NCBI GenBank assembly: GCA_020849205.1
Contig: JADLGS010000073.1
Coordinates: 1 to 11,371, forward strand
Origin: Candidatus Falkowiibacteriota bacterium
Lineage (GTDB): Bacteria; Patescibacteriota; Patescibacteriia; CAIXNZ01; JADLGS01
Direction: 5' to 3'
Length of the DNA: 11,371 bases
Shown: positions 2,918-8,344 of the stretch, in pieces
How positions within the stretch are numbered: position 1 is the first letter of the stretch
Layout: every line of letters begins with the position of its first letter
Notes under the pieces: model-generated
Seen by the model: the letters and a program-made list of their open reading frames with translations, nothing else
Databases searched by the model: none
Told to the model about the DNA's origin: nothing
Program-made: the position numbers and the translations under genes

Positions 2918-3340
2918 ATGAAAAAAATTTTATTACTTATCATAACTATCGCGATCCTTGCGCCACTCAACTCTCAGGCGCAACCAATTGCAGGTGATCA
3001 AGGATTGTTAACGGGGCTTGATTGTGTCTCTGATGGTAATTGTCAGATCTGCGACATCATGATTGTTGCTAACAACATCATCAAGGTAATCCTAGGATTA
3101 AGTGGTAGCATCGCGTTACTCGCCTGCCTCATCTCTGGTGGATACCTCCTTATATCACAAGGCGGTGAATATAAGAAAAAAGCATACGAAACAGCAAAAA
3201 CCGCGCTCATTGGACTTGCTATAATATTCTTCGCGTACCCGCTTGTTAATCTAGGCTTAAACATTGTCACCGGAAGCGCCGACATAACAGAACCTGCAAA
3301 AGTATTTGGATCACAAGCTTGGACTGATTTTTGTAAATAA
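2918..3340 (+). CDS. pilin-like protein A (T4SS pilin / VirB2-TrbC style, Cys-containing)
   Basis: A 140-residue protein with a Sec signal peptide (MKK, hydrophobic core, probable cleavage after NSQA at residue 21), then two predicted membrane helices at about 54-78 and 96-118 joined by a short charged loop (GGEYKKKAYETAK). This layout and the motifs 'IIKVILGLSGSIALL', 'GGYLLISQGG' and 'TALIGLAIIFFAYPLVN' match the small pilin family found next to type IV secretion genes and common in Patescibacteria. It is the most divergent of the six copies. It adds C36, C42 and C45 before the first helix and a roughly 20-residue C-terminal tail with C139, which could form extracellular disulfides. The start is 3 nt after the lipoprotein stop and the stop is 3 nt before pilin B, so translation is probably coupled; no Shine-Dalgarno is visible. 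The role in a pilus or secretion fibre is inferred. Confidence 0.8.
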   Translation: MKKILLLIITIAILAPLNSQAQPIAGDQGLLTGLDCVSDGNCQICDIMIVANNIIKVILGLSGSIALLACLISGGYLLISQGGEYKKKAYETAKTALIGLAIIFFAYPLVNLGLNIVTGSADITEPAKVFGSQAWTDFCK

Positions 3341-3343
3341 ACT

Positions 3344-3673
3344 ATGAAAAGAATTTTAACAACAACTCTACTTGGACTACATGTATTTGCCAACAAAGCA
3401 CACGCAGTGGCGTTAGCAAATCCACTTGGTCAAAATAAAGTCGATCCTAATCAAATTATTGGAAACATTATAAAGAGTGGTCTCTCATTTCTTGGTATCG
3501 TAGCGCTCGTAATGTTTTTGTATGGAGGCTTGCAAATGTTTTTTTCGCGCGGCGATGACAAAAAAATCAAACAGGGTCGCGACACAATTATCTGGGCAGC
3601 TATTGGACTTGTTGTAATATTTTCGAGCTACGCCCTCGTTTCATACGTGCTCGCCTTTATTACCACATTATAA
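3344..3673 (+). CDS. pilin-like protein B (two-helix T4SS pilin family)
   Basis: A 109-residue protein with a Sec signal peptide (MKR start, probable cleavage after NKAHA, residue 21) followed by the family core: helix 1 at about 44-62 (GLSFLGIVALVMFLYGG), a charged loop SRGDDKKIKQGRD (68-80) and helix 2 at about 82-106 (IIWAAIGLVVIFSSYALV). It shares with copy D the pattern GGLxMxFSxGD, then GRxTIxW, and differs there from copies C, E and F, which have GFxWM and a KKAK-type loop. It begins 3 nt after the stop of A with no ribosome-binding site, so it should be translated by coupling from A. No hairpin follows it, so the transcript probably continues into C. Family members assemble in the membrane as pilus subunits after signal removal; that this one does so is inference. 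Confidence 0.8.
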   Translation: MKRILTTTLLGLHVFANKAHAVALANPLGQNKVDPNQIIGNIIKSGLSFLGIVALVMFLYGGLQMFFSRGDDKKIKQGRDTIIWAAIGLVVIFSSYALVSYVLAFITTL

Positions 3674-3719
3674 TCATGTATACTATTAATAAGTAAATAA
3701 TTAATTATATCTTTTACCT

Positions 3720-4124
3720 ATGCTCAAAAAGATTTTAGCAACACTCGCAACATTTGCGCTCGTTGCTGCCCCTGCCTTCGTTGGCGCTCAAACTCTTAGC
3801 TCAGACCCTGAGGATCCGTTTGGACTCGCTCCAGGACAAAACCTCTACGGAAGTTCTGATCAAGACTTACGCGTCACCATCGTCAACATTATCAACGTAT
3901 TCATGGGACTTCTTGGTACTGTTGCTGTGGTAATCATTCTCTACGGTGGATTCAAGTGGATGACTGCTGGTGGTGAATCAAAAGGAACTGAACAAGCCAA
4001 AAAACTTATTATCAATGGTATTATTGGACTTGTAATCATCTTGTCATCATACGCAATCGCTCGCTTCGTCCTTGTATCGCTTCTTCGCGGTACGGGTGGA
4101 AGTGGTTCTGAGCTCTATCAATAA
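3720..4124 (+). CDS. pilin-like protein C (two-helix T4SS pilin family)
   Basis: A 134-residue protein with a signal peptide (MLKK, hydrophobic core, cleavage likely after FVGA at residue 23), an acidic 25-residue mature N-terminal segment, helix 1 at about 54-76 (IINVFMGLLGTVAVVIILYGG), the FKWMTAGG turn, a loop with KGTEQAKK, helix 2 at about 97-121 and a Gly/Ser-rich tail. It is the best consensus example of the family here and groups with E and F. A 46-nt AT-rich gap separates it from B. That gap contains TATACT (3679-3684), a possible extra promoter with a roughly 29-nt leader and no good -35, so read-through from the 1519 promoter is the simpler view. A strong GC-rich terminator follows directly and ends this transcription unit. 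Confidence 0.82.
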   Translation: MLKKILATLATFALVAAPAFVGAQTLSSDPEDPFGLAPGQNLYGSSDQDLRVTIVNIINVFMGLLGTVAVVIILYGGFKWMTAGGESKGTEQAKKLIINGIIGLVIILSSYAIARFVLVSLLRGTGGSGSELYQ

Positions 4125-4133
4125 ACCAAAACC

Positions 4134-4167
4134 ACCACGGCAGTCGCGACTGCCGTGGTTTTGTTTT
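4134..4167 (+). terminator. strong intrinsic terminator after pilin C
   Basis: A perfect 13-nt inverted repeat (4134-4146 ACCACGGCAGTCG, complement at 4147-4159) has no spacer, so the loop forms from the central CGCG. A T-rich tail (TTTGTTTT) follows. It marks the end of the lipoprotein/pilin A-B-C unit. Confidence 0.9.
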
Positions 4168-4177
4168 CCACACCTCC

Positions 4178-4205
4178 GACTTCTGACTCCTGACTTCTGG
4201 CTCCT
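4178..4205 (+). repeat. tandem heptamer repeat (4 units) upstream of the pilin D promoter
   Basis: Four consecutive 7-nt units fit the pattern G(A/G)CT(T/C)CT: GACTTCT, GACTCCT, GACTTCT and GGCTCCT. The preceding CACCTCC may be a decayed fifth unit. The array sits between the terminator of pilin C and the -10 of pilin D, occupying the region where a -35 would be. Confidence 0.75.
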
Positions 4206-4211
4206 TATTTA

Positions 4212-4220
4212 TGTTATAAT
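4212..4220 (+). promoter_or_regulatory. extended -10 promoter of pilin D, leaderless
   Basis: TGT plus a perfect TATAAT (4215-4220) is followed by exactly 6 nt (AACCAC) and then the ATG at 4227, so the predicted +1 is the A of the start codon. No recognisable -35; the heptamer array occupies that position. Confidence 0.7.
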
Positions 4221-4226
4221 AACCAC

Positions 4227-4703
4227 ATGTCTCGAAAACTACTTATCATAGGCACTATTATTGTGCTTTCAATAATGTTAACTGGCTATTCGTTTGCTGC
4301 TCCGACTGTACCACCGACAGATCCTTTAGTAGGCGGTCAAACCAGTGGCGCTGGAAGCACTAGTACCAACACCTCTTCATCAGATAATTCAGTTGGAGGG
4401 GTTCAAGCAGCAATTAACTCGCTTGAAGCAACAACTTCAGCAGCTGGTCTGCCAAAGCAAACGCTTGGCGCAACGCTCAAAAAAGTGATTGATAACGTGA
4501 TTGGATTGTTAGGAGCGGCATTCTTGATTCTCTGTATCTACGGCGGACTTCGTATGATGTTCTCAAAAGGAGACGAGAAAGCGTATGCAGAAGGAAGAAA
4601 GACGATTTCGTGGGGTGTTATTGGCATGATCGTTATACTTGTTTCTTACGGTATAGTTGATCTCTTGTTTGGCGTAGTGGTACCTGGAATATCAGGGCAA
4701 TAA
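4227..4703 (+). CDS. pilin-like protein D (two-helix T4SS pilin family, with Ser/Thr/Gly linker)
   Basis: A 158-residue protein, the longest copy. It has a signal peptide (MSRK, hydrophobic core, likely cleavage around YSFAA, residue 25), a low-complexity extracellular segment rich in Ser, Thr, Gly and Asn (about 38-58) that the other copies lack, helix 1 at about 88-107 (VIGLLGAAFLILCIYGG), the loop MFSKGDEKAYAEGRKTISW (111-129) and helix 2 at about 129-153. The loop pattern FSKGDEK, then GRKTISW closely parallels copy B (FSRGDDKK, then GRDTIIW), indicating common descent by duplication. The start at 4227 is fixed by the -10 hexamer 6 nt upstream; there is no Shine-Dalgarno. It is followed after a 36-nt AT-rich gap by E, again mirroring the B-C pair. 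Surface exposure of the linker is inferred. Confidence 0.82.
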   Translation: MSRKLLIIGTIIVLSIMLTGYSFAAPTVPPTDPLVGGQTSGAGSTSTNTSSSDNSVGGVQAAINSLEATTSAAGLPKQTLGATLKKVIDNVIGLLGAAFLILCIYGGLRMMFSKGDEKAYAEGRKTISWGVIGMIVILVSYGIVDLLFGVVVPGISGQ

Positions 4704-4739
4704 ACTTAATTAATAAACTATTTAAATAAATAATTTTAT

Positions 4740-5123
4740 ATGAAAAAATTTCTTTCGTTCGCACTTTCGTTAGCGCTCGCGCTCACCTTAGGAGTAGTAT
4801 CAGTTCAAGCAGCAACTGATACTCTTGATGATCTTAAGTTAGAAAATCTATCTAATCAACTTGATGTGTCTGCTCAAGGTCCTGCTGAAACACTCGTTAC
4901 AATCATTAATACACTCTTCGGACTTCTTGGAACAGTCGCCCTCCTCATCTTCCTTTACGCAGGTTTTCAATGGATGATGTCAGGAGACTCTGCTGATGGA
5001 GCAAAGAAGGCAAAAGAGAGAATGAAAAATGCAGCTATTGGTATCTTCCTCATCCTTGCAGCATATTCAATTTCATCGTTTGTAATCAATGCGCTTACTA
5101 CTGCAACTGGTGGTAATGGGTAA
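4740..5123 (+). CDS. pilin-like protein E (two-helix T4SS pilin family)
   Basis: A 127-residue protein with a clear signal peptide (MKKFLSFALS, cleavage likely after VSVQA at residue 24), an acidic mature N-terminal segment, helix 1 at about 53-74 (IINTLFGLLGTVALLIFLYAG), FQWMMSGD, a basic loop AKKAKERMKN (88-97), helix 2 at about 98-119 and a short Gly/Asn tail. It is closest to copies C and F (FxWMM turn, KKAK loop, AYSIxSFV-type second helix). The AT-rich region before it contains AATAAT (4729-4734) 5 nt before the ATG, a possible weak leaderless promoter in addition to read-through from D. No Shine-Dalgarno is present. A 13-bp hairpin terminator follows 8 nt after the stop. Confidence 0.82.
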   Translation: MKKFLSFALSLALALTLGVVSVQAATDTLDDLKLENLSNQLDVSAQGPAETLVTIINTLFGLLGTVALLIFLYAGFQWMMSGDSADGAKKAKERMKNAAIGIFLILAAYSISSFVINALTTATGGNG

Positions 5124-5131
5124 TTAATAAC

Positions 5132-5165
5132 AAAAAACCCTCAAGGAATTGAGGGTTTTTTATTT
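5132..5165 (+). terminator. intrinsic terminator after pilin E
   Basis: A 13-bp perfect stem (5132-5144 AAAAAACCCTCAA pairing with 5149-5161) with a GGAA loop is flanked by A and T runs, so the T-tract is continuous with the stem and TATTTT follows. It ends the D-E unit just before the pilin F promoter. Confidence 0.9.
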
Positions 5166-5178
5166 TACTCTTTTCGTA

Positions 5179-5187
5179 TGATATAAT
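5179..5187 (+). promoter_or_regulatory. extended -10 promoter of pilin F, leaderless
   Basis: TGA plus a perfect TATAAT (5182-5187) lies exactly 6 nt (AGTAGC) before the ATG at 5194. The position of a -35 falls in the T-rich tail of the preceding terminator and matches poorly, so the TGn extension probably compensates. Confidence 0.7.
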
Positions 5188-5193
5188 AGTAGC

Positions 5194-5565
5194 ATGAAAT
5201 ATTTCTCATTTATTATCGGGTGTCTCATAATTCTTGGTGTTAGTGTCTCAAACGCTATCGCAATCACTCCACAACAACATCTTGAGTCTGTAGATTACAC
5301 AAATGTACAAACTAATGAAGTACGCGGTAGCGCTGCTTTGGTTATTGTAAATTTTATTAATGTTGTCTTTGGTTTACTTGGCGTTGTTATTCTCGTCTAT
5401 TTCTTGTACGCAGGTTTTAAATGGATGATGGCGCAAGATAATCAAGGTGAGGTCAAAAAAGCAAAGGATATCATGAAAAACGTCGCCATTGGCGCATTCG
5501 TTATCCTCATCTCCTACTCACTCGCAACCTTTGTCACCAACGCGCTACTTAACTTAAATAAATAA
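5194..5565 (+). CDS. pilin-like protein F (two-helix T4SS pilin family)
   Basis: A 123-residue protein with a signal peptide (MKYFSFIIG, hydrophobic core, cleavage likely after SNAIA at residue 23), a polar mature N-terminal segment (24-44), helix 1 at about 47-71 (INVVFGLLGVVILVYFLYAG), FKWMMAQD, loop EVKKAKDIMKN (86-96) and helix 2 at about 97-119 (VAIGAFVILISYSLATFV). The turn, the loop and the second helix align closely with E (FQWMMSGD, then AKKAKERMKN), so F and E look like the most recent pair. It is transcribed from its own promoter and the start is set by the -10 hexamer 6 nt upstream. Its stop codon lies inside the left arm of a hairpin shared with the convergent glycosyltransferase gene. 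No VirB4- or VirD4-type ATPase is in the window, so the assembly machinery must be elsewhere. Confidence 0.82.
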   Translation: MKYFSFIIGCLIILGVSVSNAIAITPQQHLESVDYTNVQTNEVRGSAALVIVNFINVVFGLLGVVILVYFLYAGFKWMMAQDNQGEVKKAKDIMKNVAIGAFVILISYSLATFVTNALLNLNK

Positions 5566-5593
5566 CTTCCGACTCTGGAAGTTATTTATTTTC
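5560..5593. terminator. bidirectional terminator between pilin F and the convergent glycosyltransferase
   Basis: An 11-bp perfect stem (5560-5570 AAATAACTTCC pairing with 5577-5587) with a GACTCT loop is flanked on both sides by TTATTTATTT when read outward, so it can serve both strands. The stop codons of both genes (5563-5565 plus, 5582-5584 minus) lie inside its arms. Confidence 0.8.
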
Positions 5594-6298
5594 TGATCGT
5601 AATCTGAGAATTTCACGGATATACTCTCTACCCACTTTAAACACTGACACTTTTGAGTCTGTTGCGCTTGCTCTATCTTTCCATGTAACTGGTAACTGCG
5701 CAATTGATTTTTGTGCTCTTTCGAGGCGATAGACAAGCTCTGAATCAAAAAACCATTGATCATTTTTGATATACGGTAGCATCTCAAGCGCAACGCTTGA
5801 CTTAACCATCTTGCATCCGCACGGAAAGTCAGAAACGTTACTTGTCAACACAGAGCGCATCAAAAAACGAAAGATCCGCGAAGCTGTTCGTCGAAGTAGT
5901 GAGCGCTTGGTGCTTGAATGCGCATGATATCGATTAGCGATGACAGCGTCATGAGAGTCAATAAGCGCAATCATGCTTGGCAAAGCCGCCAAATCAACTG
6001 CCAAATCAGCATCCATAAACATCACTGCATCATATGCGTCACCAAACTTCTCCCAGGCGCTTTTTATCGCAATCCCCTTACCTTTGAGTGGTATTTCATG
6101 TAATTGAACACTTGGTGTGTGAAGGGACACTTCCCGCACCACCGCGCGGGTATCGTCTTGAGACGCATTGTCAGAAACAATAATTGTTGTCTTGACGTCT
6201 GATAGATTATTTTTGATAAAGCTTTCTAATCGCAAAAGACTCTCTTTGATAATAGAGGCTTCGTTGTATGTTGGGATGACAATCAAAAGAGATTTCAT
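5582..6298 (-). CDS. family 2 glycosyltransferase, polyprenyl/dolichyl-phosphate glucosyltransferase-like
   Basis: A 238-residue GT-A fold enzyme predicted to move a sugar from a nucleotide donor onto a polyprenyl phosphate at the inner membrane face. Motifs: IPTYNEA (8-14), SDNASQDDT (42-50), KGKGIA (72-77, typical of the ALG5/dolichyl-phosphate glucosyltransferase branch), the metal-binding DADLA (96-100), FPCGCKMVK (158-166, where many relatives have a DxQCGFKLF-type motif) and WFFDSELVYRLER (182-194). A Lys-rich 'SKVSVFKVGREYIREILRLR' segment follows. There is no C-terminal membrane helix, unlike the longer DPM1 fusions. The start is taken as the ATG at 6298: a TATAGT -10 ends 6 nt before it. 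An in-frame GTG at 6304 abuts that hexamer and would lie upstream of the transcript. UDP-glucose from GalU is a plausible donor, but mannose cannot be excluded. Confidence 0.87.
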   Translation of the reverse strand: MKSLLIVIPTYNEASIIKESLLRLESFIKNNLSDVKTTIIVSDNASQDDTRAVVREVSLHTPSVQLHEIPLKGKGIAIKSAWEKFGDAYDAVMFMDADLAVDLAALPSMIALIDSHDAVIANRYHAHSSTKRSLLRRTASRIFRFLMRSVLTSNVSDFPCGCKMVKSSVALEMLPYIKNDQWFFDSELVYRLERAQKSIAQLPVTWKDRASATDSKVSVFKVGREYIREILRLRSENK

Positions 6299-6304
6299 GC
6301 TCAC

Positions 6305-6332
6305 ACTATATCACGTTATCCACATCTGCAAA
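6305..6332 (-). promoter_or_regulatory. promoter of the glycosyltransferase, leaderless
   Basis: On the minus strand TTTGCA (6332-6327), a 16-nt spacer and TATAGT (6310-6305) are present, the latter preceded by TGA (extended -10). The 6 nt GTGAGC separate it from the ATG at 6298, which decides the start. It is divergent from the promoter of the candidate small RNA, with the two -35 boxes 11 nt apart. Confidence 0.65.
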
Positions 6333-6343
6333 ACACTGTACTC

Positions 6344-6371
6344 TTGTAATGTGAGTTAAAGCTGTTATACT
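6344..6371 (+). promoter_or_regulatory. promoter of a candidate small RNA
   Basis: TTGTAA (6344-6349), a 16-nt spacer and TATACT (6366-6371) preceded by TGT (extended -10) give a good sigma70-type match. Six nt later the sequence is GAC, not a start codon, so unlike its neighbours this promoter does not drive a leaderless gene. Confidence 0.6.
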
Positions 6372-6377
6372 AAGTAG

Positions 6378-6473
6378 GACATCGGTAATTCACTGATTAC
6401 TCATACCAGTCATTTGCCTCATTAGTTGTGGGCCTTTCATGCTTGGCTTCATAATGAATGAGGCTTTTTCTTT
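6378..6473 (+). ncRNA. candidate small RNA of about 95 nt
   Basis: The 200-nt gap between the glycosyltransferase and yebC has an extended -10 promoter on the plus strand and, about 80 nt later, a plus-strand intrinsic terminator. Between them there is no ORF with a believable start: the only longer frame (ATG at 6439) begins inside the terminator hairpin and runs antisense into the yebC end. The 5' part contains a small inverted repeat (GTAAT, TCACTG, ATTAC, about 6385-6400). The sequence does not match tRNA, tmRNA, SRP RNA or RNase P signatures that I can recognise. Function and family are unknown; it might act in trans or simply be a short regulatory transcript. Confidence 0.5.
6416..6473 (+). 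terminator. intrinsic terminator of the candidate small RNA
   Basis: An 8-bp perfect stem GCCTCATT (6416-6423) pairs with AATGAGGC (6457-6464) and is followed directly by TTTTTCTTTT. The 33-nt loop can form a weaker inner stem (GCC with GGC near 6432-6447). The T-tail exists only on the plus strand, so it does not serve yebC. Confidence 0.75.
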
Positions 6474-6504
6474 TGAGGTGCGTGAGTACTTGATTCTTCA
6501 ATTA

Positions 6505-7230
6505 CTATTCTGCGTTATGAAATACAGCGTCTACATCGTCTAGGTCGTCAAGTTTTTCAAGTATTATCTCTAATTCTGATGATTGTTCAGGCGTGAGTTC
6601 TTTTGTTTCTTTGGCTACATATTCAATCGCAGAATCGGAAAGAGTGATGCCAAGTTGAGTTAGTGTTTTTAGAGCATTTCCATAATCAACTACATTAACA
6701 TACACGATCCATTGCTCATCTAGTTTCAAAATATCAAGAGCTCCAGCATCAATTAATTTCATTTCCAATTCATCTGGTACATGTTTCAAAATTTCATCAT
6801 GTGCAAGATAGATAACACCCTTTTTTTCAAAATTCCATGACACTGCCCCTTGAGCAGCAAGCGTCATTTCGTGTTTAGCAACCACATTCTTGATCTCGGT
6901 AAGCGCGCGGTTTGTGTTGTCAGTTTGGCAAACAATAATCATACCGACTTTTCCCGGGCCAAGCGCCTCGTACACGGCTTCGTTAATCGCCCCTCCTTCT
7001 AACTCCCCCGTACCTTTTTTGATCGCGCGCTCAATCACATCTTTTGGCACACTGACGCTCTTAGCTCGATCAATCGCAAGTCGCAGCGAAAAATTAAAAT
7101 CAGGATTACCGCCTCCAAGTCGCGCAGCAACCGTTACCGCGCGCGCCATTTTGGTAAATGTAGTCGCTCGCTTTGCGTCTATTCCGCCTTTATATTGTCG
7201 TACTTTGTGCCACCGAGAATGACCGGACAT
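6505..7230 (-). CDS. yebC: YebC/PmpR family protein (TACO1-like)
   Basis: A 241-residue member of the conserved YebC family, within the usual 235-250. It starts with the family hallmark MSGHSRWHKVRQYKG and continues with DAKRATTFTKMARAV, GGGNPDFNFSLRLAI, VPKDVIERAIKKGTG, 'YEALGPGKVGMIIVCQTDN', NRALTEIKNV and 'GAVSWNFEKKG', ending in an acidic C-terminal tail. Family members have been described both as DNA-binding regulators and, more recently, as ribosome-associated factors that ease translation of difficult proline-containing stretches; the sequence does not decide between these. The ATG at 7230 is fixed by the hallmark N terminus. It is divergent from ruvC, whereas in many bacteria yebC and ruvC lie in one operon. 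Its leader of roughly 36 nt is composed almost entirely of heptamer repeats and lacks a Shine-Dalgarno. No T-tailed hairpin follows it on the minus strand. Confidence 0.95.
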   Translation of the reverse strand: MSGHSRWHKVRQYKGGIDAKRATTFTKMARAVTVAARLGGGNPDFNFSLRLAIDRAKSVSVPKDVIERAIKKGTGELEGGAINEAVYEALGPGKVGMIIVCQTDNTNRALTEIKNVVAKHEMTLAAQGAVSWNFEKKGVIYLAHDEILKHVPDELEMKLIDAGALDILKLDEQWIVYVNVVDYGNALKTLTQLGITLSDSAIEYVAKETKELTPEQSSELEIILEKLDDLDDVDAVFHNAE

Positions 7231-7235
7231 AGGTT

Positions 7236-7270
7236 AGAAGTAAGTAGTAAGAAGTAAGTAGTAAGTAAAG
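7236..7270 (-). repeat. tandem heptamer repeat (5 units) in the yebC leader
   Basis: Read on the minus strand, 35 nt divide into five exact 7-nt steps: CTTTACT, then TACTACT and TACTTCT alternating twice. The array fills the space between the yebC -10 box and AACCTATG at the start codon, so it would be transcribed as the 5' leader. Confidence 0.85.
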
Positions 7271-7272
7271 AT

Positions 7273-7301
7273 AGTGTAGTTAAGATTTCTTGATATGTAA
7301 A
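7273..7301 (-). promoter_or_regulatory. yebC promoter
   Basis: On the minus strand TTTACA (7301-7296), a 17-nt spacer and TACACT (7278-7273) are present. The -35 matches five of six consensus bases, the -10 four of six. It is flanked on both sides by heptamer arrays. The predicted +1 is near 7267. Confidence 0.55.
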
Positions 7302-7350
7302 GTGTCTTGTGTACTGTGTCTTGTGTACTGTGTCTTGTGTATCGTGTATA
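7302..7350 (+). repeat. tandem heptamer repeat (7 units) running into the ruvC -10 box
   Basis: Seven contiguous 7-nt units all begin GTGT: GTGTCTT and GTGTACT alternate, then GTGTCTT, GTGTATC and GTGTATA. The last unit overlaps the -10 hexamer TATACT (7347-7352). The first unit begins directly beside the -35 of the divergent yebC promoter. Confidence 0.85.
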
Positions 7351-7352
7351 CT
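7347..7352 (+). promoter_or_regulatory. -10 box of ruvC, leaderless
   Basis: TATACT, preceded by TG without the usual spacer base, lies exactly 6 nt (ATTTTT) before the ATG at 7359. There is no convincing -35 because the upstream DNA is repeat. Its spacing is the same as at 4227, 5194 and 6298. Confidence 0.6.
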
Positions 7353-7358
7353 ATTTTT

Positions 7359-7871
7359 ATGTCACACAACAAATCAACTACTATCTTAGGTATCGATCCC
7401 GGCTATGGTATCGTTGGTTTTGGTGTAATTACTATTAACGATTCTCATCAGATGAAACACGTCACTCATGGCGTGATCACCACACCTTCAAAATCAGAAT
7501 TTATATCTCGCATACACATCATTTCGCAAGATCTTATCGATATTATCAAAAAATATAAACCAGATGCTGTTGGTATTGAAAAAATATTTTTTGCAAAAAA
7601 CACCAAAACTGCCATCGATGTTGCTCAGGCGCGAGGCGCAATCCTTGCTACCATCGCAGCCCATAACGTGCCGATCTTTGAACTAACACCACTACAAGTG
7701 AAACAAGGTATCGTTGGATACGGAAAGGCGGATAAAATTCAGGTACAAAAAATGACACAGTATCTCATGGGACTCACAAAAATCCCAAAACCTGACGATG
7801 CCGCCGACGCGCTCGCAATCGCCGTAGCCGTATCAACGCAAGTATTGACGCGAAGATTAAAAGGAGTATAG
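7359..7871 (+). CDS. ruvC: Holliday junction resolvase RuvC
   Basis: A crossover junction endodeoxyribonuclease that makes paired nicks in four-way DNA junctions together with RuvAB. The 170 residues compare with 173 in E. coli. The RNase H-like core shows the acidic catalytic set: D13 in LGIDPGYG, E74 in VGIEKIFFAKN, and D147 and D150 in PDDAADALAIA. Other family motifs are AIDVAQARGAI (85-95) and 'LTPLQVKQGIVGYGKADKIQV'. The ATG at 7359 is preferred because it gives the normal N terminus and lies 6 nt after a -10 hexamer. The frame stays open upstream to a TTG at 7290, but that stretch merely translates the heptamer repeats into Cys/Val/Leu-rich nonsense. ruvA and ruvB are not adjacent; the next gene is a small unknown protein 43 nt downstream, probably on the same transcript. 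Confidence 0.95.
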   Translation: MSHNKSTTILGIDPGYGIVGFGVITINDSHQMKHVTHGVITTPSKSEFISRIHIISQDLIDIIKKYKPDAVGIEKIFFAKNTKTAIDVAQARGAILATIAAHNVPIFELTPLQVKQGIVGYGKADKIQVQKMTQYLMGLTKIPKPDDAADALAIAVAVSTQVLTRRLKGV

Positions 7872-7902
7872 TAATAAGCATATAGTTCTTCAACCCTTTG
7901 GC

Positions 7903-7907
7903 AAGGA
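7903..7907 (+). promoter_or_regulatory. Shine-Dalgarno of the small gene behind ruvC
   Basis: AAGGA lies 7 nt before the ATG at 7915. It is the clearest ribosome-binding site in the window and supports the start of this operon-internal gene. Confidence 0.65.
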
Positions 7908-7914
7908 AAATCAC

Positions 7915-8211
7915 ATGGCTTCTCAAAAACTTCGAATCCCTTCAAACTCTGAATTACACATGTTTCATTCGCTTGGAGCAATTCCAGCAAGCTCCGCGTA
8001 TTTGGATGTTGGTGATGAAGCGGTGATTACGCGTATTAATTCTGTACGCGCCAAAGCACCTGACTCACAAGGCAAAATTACACTGAATCGCTCCAAGACG
8101 ATTGCAATTCGTAATGAGCAAATCAATGCATTTTTTGCTCACGGAACGAGAGCTTCTCGTTATAGTATTGGGCAAGACAAAGAAGGTCTGCCTATTATTA
8201 CGACAAAATAG
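7915..8211 (+). CDS. small basic protein of unknown function (98 aa)
   Basis: I do not recognise this protein. It has 98 residues, no signal peptide and no membrane segment, so it is probably cytosolic. It is moderately basic, with Lys/Arg concentrated in the second half (INSVRAKAPDSQGKITLNR, 'RSKTIAIRNEQINAFFAHG', 'TRASRYSIGQ'). A beta-rich pattern such as DEAVITRINSV and KITLNRSKTIAIRN would suit a small nucleic-acid or ribosome-binding fold, but this is speculation. Evidence for coding: a good Shine-Dalgarno, a frame free of repeats, no competing frame of quality, and a terminator 10 nt behind the stop. It lies 43 nt after ruvC on the same strand with no promoter visible between, so it is probably co-expressed with ruvC. 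Confidence 0.75.
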   Translation: MASQKLRIPSNSELHMFHSLGAIPASSAYLDVGDEAVITRINSVRAKAPDSQGKITLNRSKTIAIRNEQINAFFAHGTRASRYSIGQDKEGLPIITTK

Positions 8212-8221
8212 TTCATTCAAT

Positions 8222-8250
8222 CCCCAAGCCACAACGGTGCGGGGTTTTTT
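8222..8250 (+). terminator. intrinsic terminator after the ruvC operon
   Basis: CCCC (8222-8225) pairs with GGGG (8241-8244), with an inner GCC/GGT stem and a 2-nt internal mismatch, followed by TTTTTT (8245-8250). The stem is imperfect but position and T-tract are right. Confidence 0.65.
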
Positions 8251-8274
8251 GATACTAAGGTTAGCTCTATACAA

Positions 8275-8303
8275 TTGAATTTTTACCCTATATTCGTTAT
8301 ACT
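8275..8303 (+). promoter_or_regulatory. promoter of the penicillin-binding protein gene
   Basis: TTGAAT (8275-8280), a 17-nt spacer and TATACT (8298-8303) form the best two-box sigma70-type promoter in the window. The predicted +1 is near 8310, leaving a 40-nt leader before the ATG at 8350. Confidence 0.75.
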
Positions 8304-8309
8304 GCATTC

Positions 8310-8318
8310 ATGAAATAG
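8310..8318 (+). other. three-codon mini-ORF (ATG AAA TAG) at the predicted +1
   Basis: Six nt after the -10 box, exactly where leaderless genes in this window begin, the sequence is ATG AAA TAG. The mini-ORF is out of frame with the PBP start at 8350 (offset 40 nt). It could be a decayed former start or a small upstream ORF in the leader. Confidence 0.4.
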
Positions 8319-8323
8319 CTTTC

Positions 8324-8344
8324 TACTTAATACTTTCTACTTTT
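8324..8344 (+). repeat. short tandem heptamer repeat (3 units) in the PBP leader
   Basis: Three 7-nt units (TACTTAA, TACTTTC, TACTTTT) lie directly after the mini-ORF and just before the start codon; flanking bases extend the period slightly on both sides. The units resemble the TACTTCT units of the yebC leader. Confidence 0.65.

Follow-up and report, generated by a model that had tools for sequence, protein, structure and literature searches.

Heptanucleotide arrays of a Patescibacteria genome as a dispersed, mostly intergenic population

Introduction

The STRR family of cyanobacteria consists of short tandem heptanucleotide repeats, and REP/REPIN sequences are dispersed intergenic hairpins that occur as singlets and as inverted pairs. 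Here we describe heptanucleotide arrays in the genome of Candidatus Falkowiibacteriota bacterium (Patescibacteriota), taking as reference a stretch of 11,371 nucleotides (contig JADLGS010000073.1; hereafter the window) in which an initial annotation, made from the letters alone, had placed four such arrays at promoters and proposed that they serve as slippage-prone spacers or as protein-binding sites. The sampled parts of the genome hold dozens of period-7 arrays that look like a genome-wide, mostly intergenic population, other periods being far rarer, and we think it rather probable that those of the window are local members of this dispersed and fast-changing set, grown by duplication of 7 or 14 nt and spread partly as hairpins.

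Heptamer arrays of similar layout are already known from Xanthomonas and Nostoc, and heptamer arrays near gene starts from Beggiatoaceae (PMC4692102, PMC4679880). The Xanthomonas and Nostoc repeats (GGGAATC or GGGGA(C/T)T) form inverted pairs in 70 cases in Xcc, with 186 repeats, and in 75 cases in Xac, with 183, and in few cases in Nostoc. In the two Xanthomonas and in Nostoc the G-rich strand is the non-coding one shortly before starts and the coding one shortly after stops, and arrays of the other orientation lie farther from the gene. The same report describes divergent gaps as under-represented and array length as varying between species, discusses the arrays as G-quadruplex elements, mentions the heptanucleotides of Calothrix, and quotes, as to why the repeat has seven bases, an older proposal that concerns the DNA segment contacted by polymerase (PMC4692102). 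TAACTGA direct repeats are described in Beggiatoaceae, Cyanobacteria and Bacteroidetes, and those of Beggiatoaceae are discussed as the site of a regulator (PMC4679880). Among the top-ranked matches in the open-licence PMC literature, no report of heptamer arrays in Patescibacteria was found by title or abstract start.

Results

Seven-base arrays in the source genome and its relatives

The source genome (G000; contigs C1, C2 and so on) comprises 517,441 bases in 99 contigs and is 66% complete; it was compared with 56 relatives of the same order or class, and the genomes searched included none of the same family. Arrays were detected with Tandem Repeats Finder (TRF) and with a thresholded scan for identity at lags of 7 and 14, and were placed relative to genes predicted by a home-made hexamer gene caller. 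Contigs C1-C40, the first-contig stretches of the relatives and the gap-type counts are unbiased samples; the sets of 85 own-genome arrays and of 160 arrays used below are biased, because own contigs beyond C40 and the stretches L174-L177 were chosen by pattern matches. Masked sequence (N) was dropped, which removed five own contigs from the intergenic-fraction count, 3 of the 56 first-contig stretches and 7 of the 80 relative stretches used in the comparison of four distance limits described below.

At a threshold of 10, contigs C1-C20 (101,792 bases, C11 being wholly masked) yielded 17 lag-7 segments, and one shuffle of them yielded 0; counts for periods 4-6 and 8-11 were 0-3. The 53 clean first-contig stretches from the 56 same-class genomes (848,180 bases) held 53 period-7 arrays, distributed over 24 genomes and intergenic in 40 cases, and one shuffle of them gave 0. 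Other periods in these stretches were led by 14, the double unit (31), followed by 12 (16) and 9 (13), with 4 intergenic cases each for the latter two, and by 15 (10), 6 and 8 (9 each, 0 and 6 intergenic, respectively), while periods 4, 5, 10, 11 and 13 gave 0-4. No period-7 array was found in fifty kilobases of E. coli K-12. Fourteen loci from other phyla (100,874 bases) contained one, within a GC-rich run, and are a weak control, as 11 of the 14 have 57% GC or more. Three named Patescibacteria loci (24,849 bases) held 2 arrays of period 7, but 3 of period 8.

The arrays lie mostly between genes. Of the 37 found in C1-C40, 29 were intergenic, 3 at a gene edge and 5 coding, in sequence of which only 11.7% (of 191,717 clean bases) is intergenic, and 19 of the 101 gaps of at least 60 nt carried an array. 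Among four own proteins examined, the coding arrays of a DEAD-box helicase, a DPBB (RlpA-like) protein and a type IV secretion system (T4SS) coupling protein lie beyond the Pfam domains. In a superoxide dismutase (L097, 7586-7615) the heptad array is inside the domain and encodes VRSQESGVRK or part of it, including six residues at the array that the best PDB relative lacks.

Variation between species, orientation and promoters

At matching gaps of same-genus species the arrays differ in both length and unit, the copy-number changes being seen between species only. In one gap common to three such species, G004 has an array of 59 nt and G002 one of 36 nt, and none was detected in G005; at a second, all three carry arrays, with units AATTCTA, AATTCAT-like and AATTTTA-like. 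Such changes, together with arrays that abut or overlap -10 boxes in several upstream regions of the source genome, are consistent with slippage-prone promoter or leader spacers that would tune expression, a change of length shifting the -35 region or the leader. We nevertheless consider this unlikely, on the following grounds.

A role specific to promoters is not supported by the gap types. Arrays were present in 42 of the 383 co-directional gaps of 60-500 nt, in 8 of the 86 divergent and in 3 of the 50 convergent ones, with no significant difference; the divergent gaps, which hold only promoters, show no excess over the co-directional ones (Fisher p 0.85). Moreover, arrays also occur after stops and inside coding sequence, in both places with the other orientation. 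Degenerate units also speak against such spacers, and growth or loss by 7 nt at a time would in many cases upset the spacing.

Orientation itself depends on distance. In all four window cases the pyrimidine-rich strand is, by reading, the coding strand of the next gene, as had been claimed; genome-wide the rule does not hold, since own-genome intergenic arrays upstream of a start, however far from it, divide into 39 of the same and 36 of the opposite orientation. Within 30 nt upstream of starts, however, the pyrimidine-rich strand was coding in 34 of 47 arrays (p = 0.003), and within 30 nt after stops in 18 of 53 (p = 0.027), in own and relative sequence with the window excluded; the limit of 30 nt is one of four tried, so that these p-values are exploratory, and their sole outside support is PMC4692102. 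At a limit of 150 nt the bias was gone (56:47 upstream of starts, 46:48 after stops), and orientation is free from there on. With the window included, the start bias appeared in paired (15:4) and solitary (22:9) arrays alike. Inside coding sequence the pyrimidine-rich strand was coding in 6 of 32 arrays, an orientation that may be partly forced by stop codons.

Two other sources of the bias were rejected. An artefact of the gene caller does not account for it, as the direction was the same, in small numbers, where stop content is equal on both strands (11:4 upstream, 7:12 downstream). Nor does background composition account for the upstream bias, the 45 nt before 637 array-free starts being 49.1% pyrimidine. 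The bias close to starts is a point in favour of tuning spacers; a promoter-only reading was rejected on account of gap type and orientation.

Inverted pairs and hairpins

Inverted pairing is frequent. An inverted partner better than in shuffled flanks lay no more than 200 nt away from 65 of the 160 arrays and from 12 of 26 in C1-C40, and the paired arrays form 48 distinct elements with a median span of 86 nt, mostly 60-135 nt. The left arm was purine-rich in 34 and pyrimidine-rich in 14 of these elements (p = 0.006). DNA folding of five hand-picked own-genome examples gave z-scores of -6.1, -6.5, -3.0, -3.7 and -4.8 against shuffles. For intrinsic terminators as an identity of these hairpins there is no clear signal: TTTT stood at 19 of 92 hairpin ends versus 0.148 of control sites (p 0.14), so that T-runs are not clearly richer at the ends.

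One relative shows such an element in many copies. In G001 an inverted-repeat element of roughly 135 nt (L118, 8464-8604), with heptad arms AATAATC/AATAACC, recurs at dozens of places, many of them matched on both strands; the total of 68 matches counts the query as well and, for one place, each strand separately. Other copies lie in G009, where the counterpart of one G001 site has diverged (fold z -2.1, with 7 of 200 shuffles as good).

These dispersed copies in G001 and G009, the 48 distinct hairpins and the presence of the Y1 transposase family (Y1_Tnp) in 11 of 16 genomes tested would suit mobile hairpins of the REP/REPIN or miniature inverted-repeat transposable element (MITE) kind, whose arms happen to be heptad arrays, which a transposase moves in trans and of which solitary arrays are half-elements. 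We hold this to be quite unlikely. Y1_Tnp was not found in five array-bearing genomes, namely G000 (66% complete), G034, G036, G039 (99% complete) and G055, in searches aimed at this family alone, and neither target-site duplications nor fixed ends have been established. Since these searches of array-bearing genomes found none, Y1 transposases are probably not required, and a REP-associated tyrosine transposase (RAYT) is rejected as a necessary mover.

Unit families

Several unit families coexist in each genome, and relatives of the same class carry other units. In the source genome one degenerate unit pattern matches 77 times (35 forward, 42 reverse) and its reversed control once. A slightly longer form of it matched in 18 of 57 genomes, with 67 matches in the source genome, 20 in G036 and at most 6 in each other, and up to 12, in one relative, for the reversed control of this form; the 67 own matches against few elsewhere mark this unit as mostly confined to its own genome. 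For a GTGT pattern the reversed control (10 matches) is uninformative, the pattern being nearly its own reverse. The unit type of the window array upstream of ruvC (GTGTCTTGTGTACT) recurs at C20, C57 and C71.

Unrelated loci of one genome also share units. Within C1-C40, 0.136 of unit pairs lay within one mismatch versus 0.058 to other genomes (letter-shuffled maximum 0.085), and within G046 the value was 0.178 versus 0.058 (shuffled maximum 0.089). The 14-nt super-period seen by the initial annotation extends to the 85 own-genome arrays, with identities of 0.796 (lag 7) and 0.810 (lag 14), these arrays having themselves been found by lag 7 or 14. As a separate observation, units drift from one family to another inside a single stretch at C10 (1147-1203) and C71 (5120-5188), the latter having GTGTACT-type beside ACTTCTT-type units.

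G-quadruplex-forming repeats were rejected as a description of the arrays. Runs of three G on either strand occurred in 11 of 160 arrays; the pattern of four runs of at least three G on one strand was present in 1 of 160 and in 0 of 63 own arrays, and its two-G version in 17 of 160 and 6 of 63.

Another reading takes the arrays as sites for a protein that binds DNA or RNA (S1, a cold-shock protein or a lineage-specific regulator), by analogy with the proposal for the Beggiatoaceae TAACTGA repeats. In its favour, own unit families are clearly favoured at unrelated loci in two of the three genomes tested, five of the seven positions of the main own family are 86-96% constant (in units selected by that very pattern), and pyrimidine-rich leaders would be unstructured. 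It is nevertheless very improbable in view of several unrelated unit families in one genome, of a unit that differs among same-genus species at the same gap, and of an orientation that follows no rule once the limit is 150 nt or larger.

The arrays of the window

All four heptamer arrays of the initial annotation were recovered by TRF (Table 1), three of them strong and the one before the penicillin-binding protein gene weak. The TRF rows all have a period of 14 nt: 4174-4205 (score 50), 7236-7265 (100% match, score 60), 7302-7341 (100%, score 80, a perfect 14-nt repeat within the ruvC array) and 8314-8342 (score 51). The lag-7/lag-14 scan keeps the first three arrays; a stricter threshold left one lag-7 and two lag-14 segments, with none in one first-order shuffle per period. 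None of the three window arrays tested has an inverted partner above the null, and the DNA folds of the window regions are unremarkable (z 0.54 and -0.03, and 0.57 for the solitary array at 4172-4213). An Rfam scan of the window at gathering thresholds gave no match to a known RNA family.

Table 1. Heptad arrays of the window and the promoter and terminator features adjoining them
Feature	Position	Strand	Basis and context
Terminator-like hairpin of pilin C	4128..4167	+	RNA fold; directly precedes the array at 4172-4213
Heptad array, GACTTCTGACTCCT type	4172..4213	+	Scan and TRF; follows the terminator-like hairpin of pilin C and precedes the pilin D -10; solitary
-10 box TATAAT	4215..4220	+	Leaderless layout, with 6 nt between the box and ATG 4227
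Heptad array, minus-strand type ACTACTTACTTCTT	7233..7267	-	Scan and TRF; presumed yebC leader
Possible yebC -10, TACACT	7273..7278	-	Two mismatches versus TATAAT
Heptad array, GTGTCTTGTGTACT type	7296..7349	+	Scan and TRF; runs into the ruvC -10
ruvC -10 box TATACT	7347..7352	+	Preceded by TG; the final unit of the array supplies part of it; ATG 7359 follows after 6 nt
-10 box TATACT	8298..8303	+	Upstream of the weak array at 8319-8344
Heptad array, weak, TTCTACTTAATACT; roughly two copies of 14 nt	8319..8344	+	Penicillin-binding protein leader; TRF score 51, under the scan threshold

The -10 boxes stand where the initial annotation implied. Across the source genome, a TATAAT-like box ends exactly 6 nt before the ATG in 20 of 163 ATG starts that have a 60-nt upstream gap (null about 2 per position) and lies 4-9 nt before it in 41 of them, a leaderless signature in which, by reading, several boxes have TG just upstream. 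Closeness of arrays to -10 boxes is therefore expected, because with boxes peaking 6 nt before the ATG anything near a start is also near a -10 box. The window arrays are solitary and fill the upstream or leader space of promoters, of which they are probably not needed parts.

Some further features of the window may be recorded here. Its gene content comprises T4SS-type pilin genes, a glycosyltransferase gene, yebC, ruvC and a penicillin-binding protein gene, and the two closest relatives of its YebC are from Patescibacteria (44 and 43% identity). Six VirB2-like (T4SS_pilin) genes stand in tandem at 2918-5565, five of which pass the Pfam cut-off, the first lying slightly under it. A mini open reading frame (ATG AAA TAG, 8310-8318) begins 6 nt after a TATACT box, upstream of the weak array and of the penicillin-binding protein start; 58 own contigs contain 6 such frames (closed by a stop in no more than six codons, beginning 5-7 nt past a box and at most 120 nt from a gene start), a count made without a null.

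Discussion

Combining these results, we prefer to read the window arrays as local representatives of a dispersed heptanucleotide population. Arrays would grow by duplication of blocks of 7 and 14 nt during replication; new arrays and inverted arms would be copied from existing ones by template switching or foldback synthesis, and such copying would spread the prevailing unit. Selection would keep most coding sequence free of arrays and remove those whose orientation interferes with starts or stops, and beside genes they may be tolerated or weakly selected.

Several points weigh against this reading. No copying event has been observed, and no same-family genome was among those searched. Slippage by itself leaves the rarity of periods 5, 6 and 8 unexplained. 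Unit sharing within G039 (0.313) barely exceeds the letter-shuffled maximum (0.294, mean 0.230). At a looser cut-off, inverted partners were found for 74 and direct partners for 43 of 160 arrays, with about 5% expected; direct partners thus exceed the null too, and the pairing signal may partly be general repetitiveness. Finally, the polarity could reflect real function near starts.

A bolder form of the idea, which we put forward only tentatively and think improbable, is that a class-wide process in Patescibacteria writes DNA in exact seven-base steps regardless of sequence, builds mirrored arrays at preferred gene-side sites and overwrites old units with the current unit of the genome. If this were true, the polarity that the present arrays share with those of Xanthomonas and Nostoc would indicate a general bacterial mechanism that depends neither on unit sequence nor on quadruplexes. 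The old oddity of why the unit should be seven becomes testable by comparing many small genomes, and arrays of this kind should not be read as promoter elements locus by locus.

Compared with REP/REPIN sequences, the present arrays are alike in their hairpin pairs, and differ in that the arms are 7-nt tandem arrays and that several genomes with arrays yielded no Y1 transposase. The TAACTGA repeats are likewise heptamer arrays that are mostly intergenic and near starts, with stops in all frames in one orientation and coding cases mostly near protein ends, and an own-genome family (TAACTGTTAACT, AACTGATAACTTAC) is close to TAACTGA in sequence; there, however, one unit is favoured and near variants are rare as repeats, whereas here there are many degenerate units (PMC4679880). 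No single fixed unit, G-rich or TAACTGA, prevails in the genomes sampled here. With the Xanthomonas and Nostoc heptamers the arrays share inverted pairs (in Xanthomonas), the same distance-dependent polarity and length variation between species; unlike them, they comprise several unit families per genome, mostly without three-G runs, change unit between same-genus species, and are not significantly poorer in divergent gaps (PMC4692102). What is new here is the many, mostly A+T-rich unit families, the turnover of units at matching gaps and the presence of arrays in 24 of the 53 same-class genomes sampled. That a further lineage shows a similar layout, with many A+T-rich units, suggests that the cause common to these cases lies in the step of seven bases and the location next to genes, and not in the unit.

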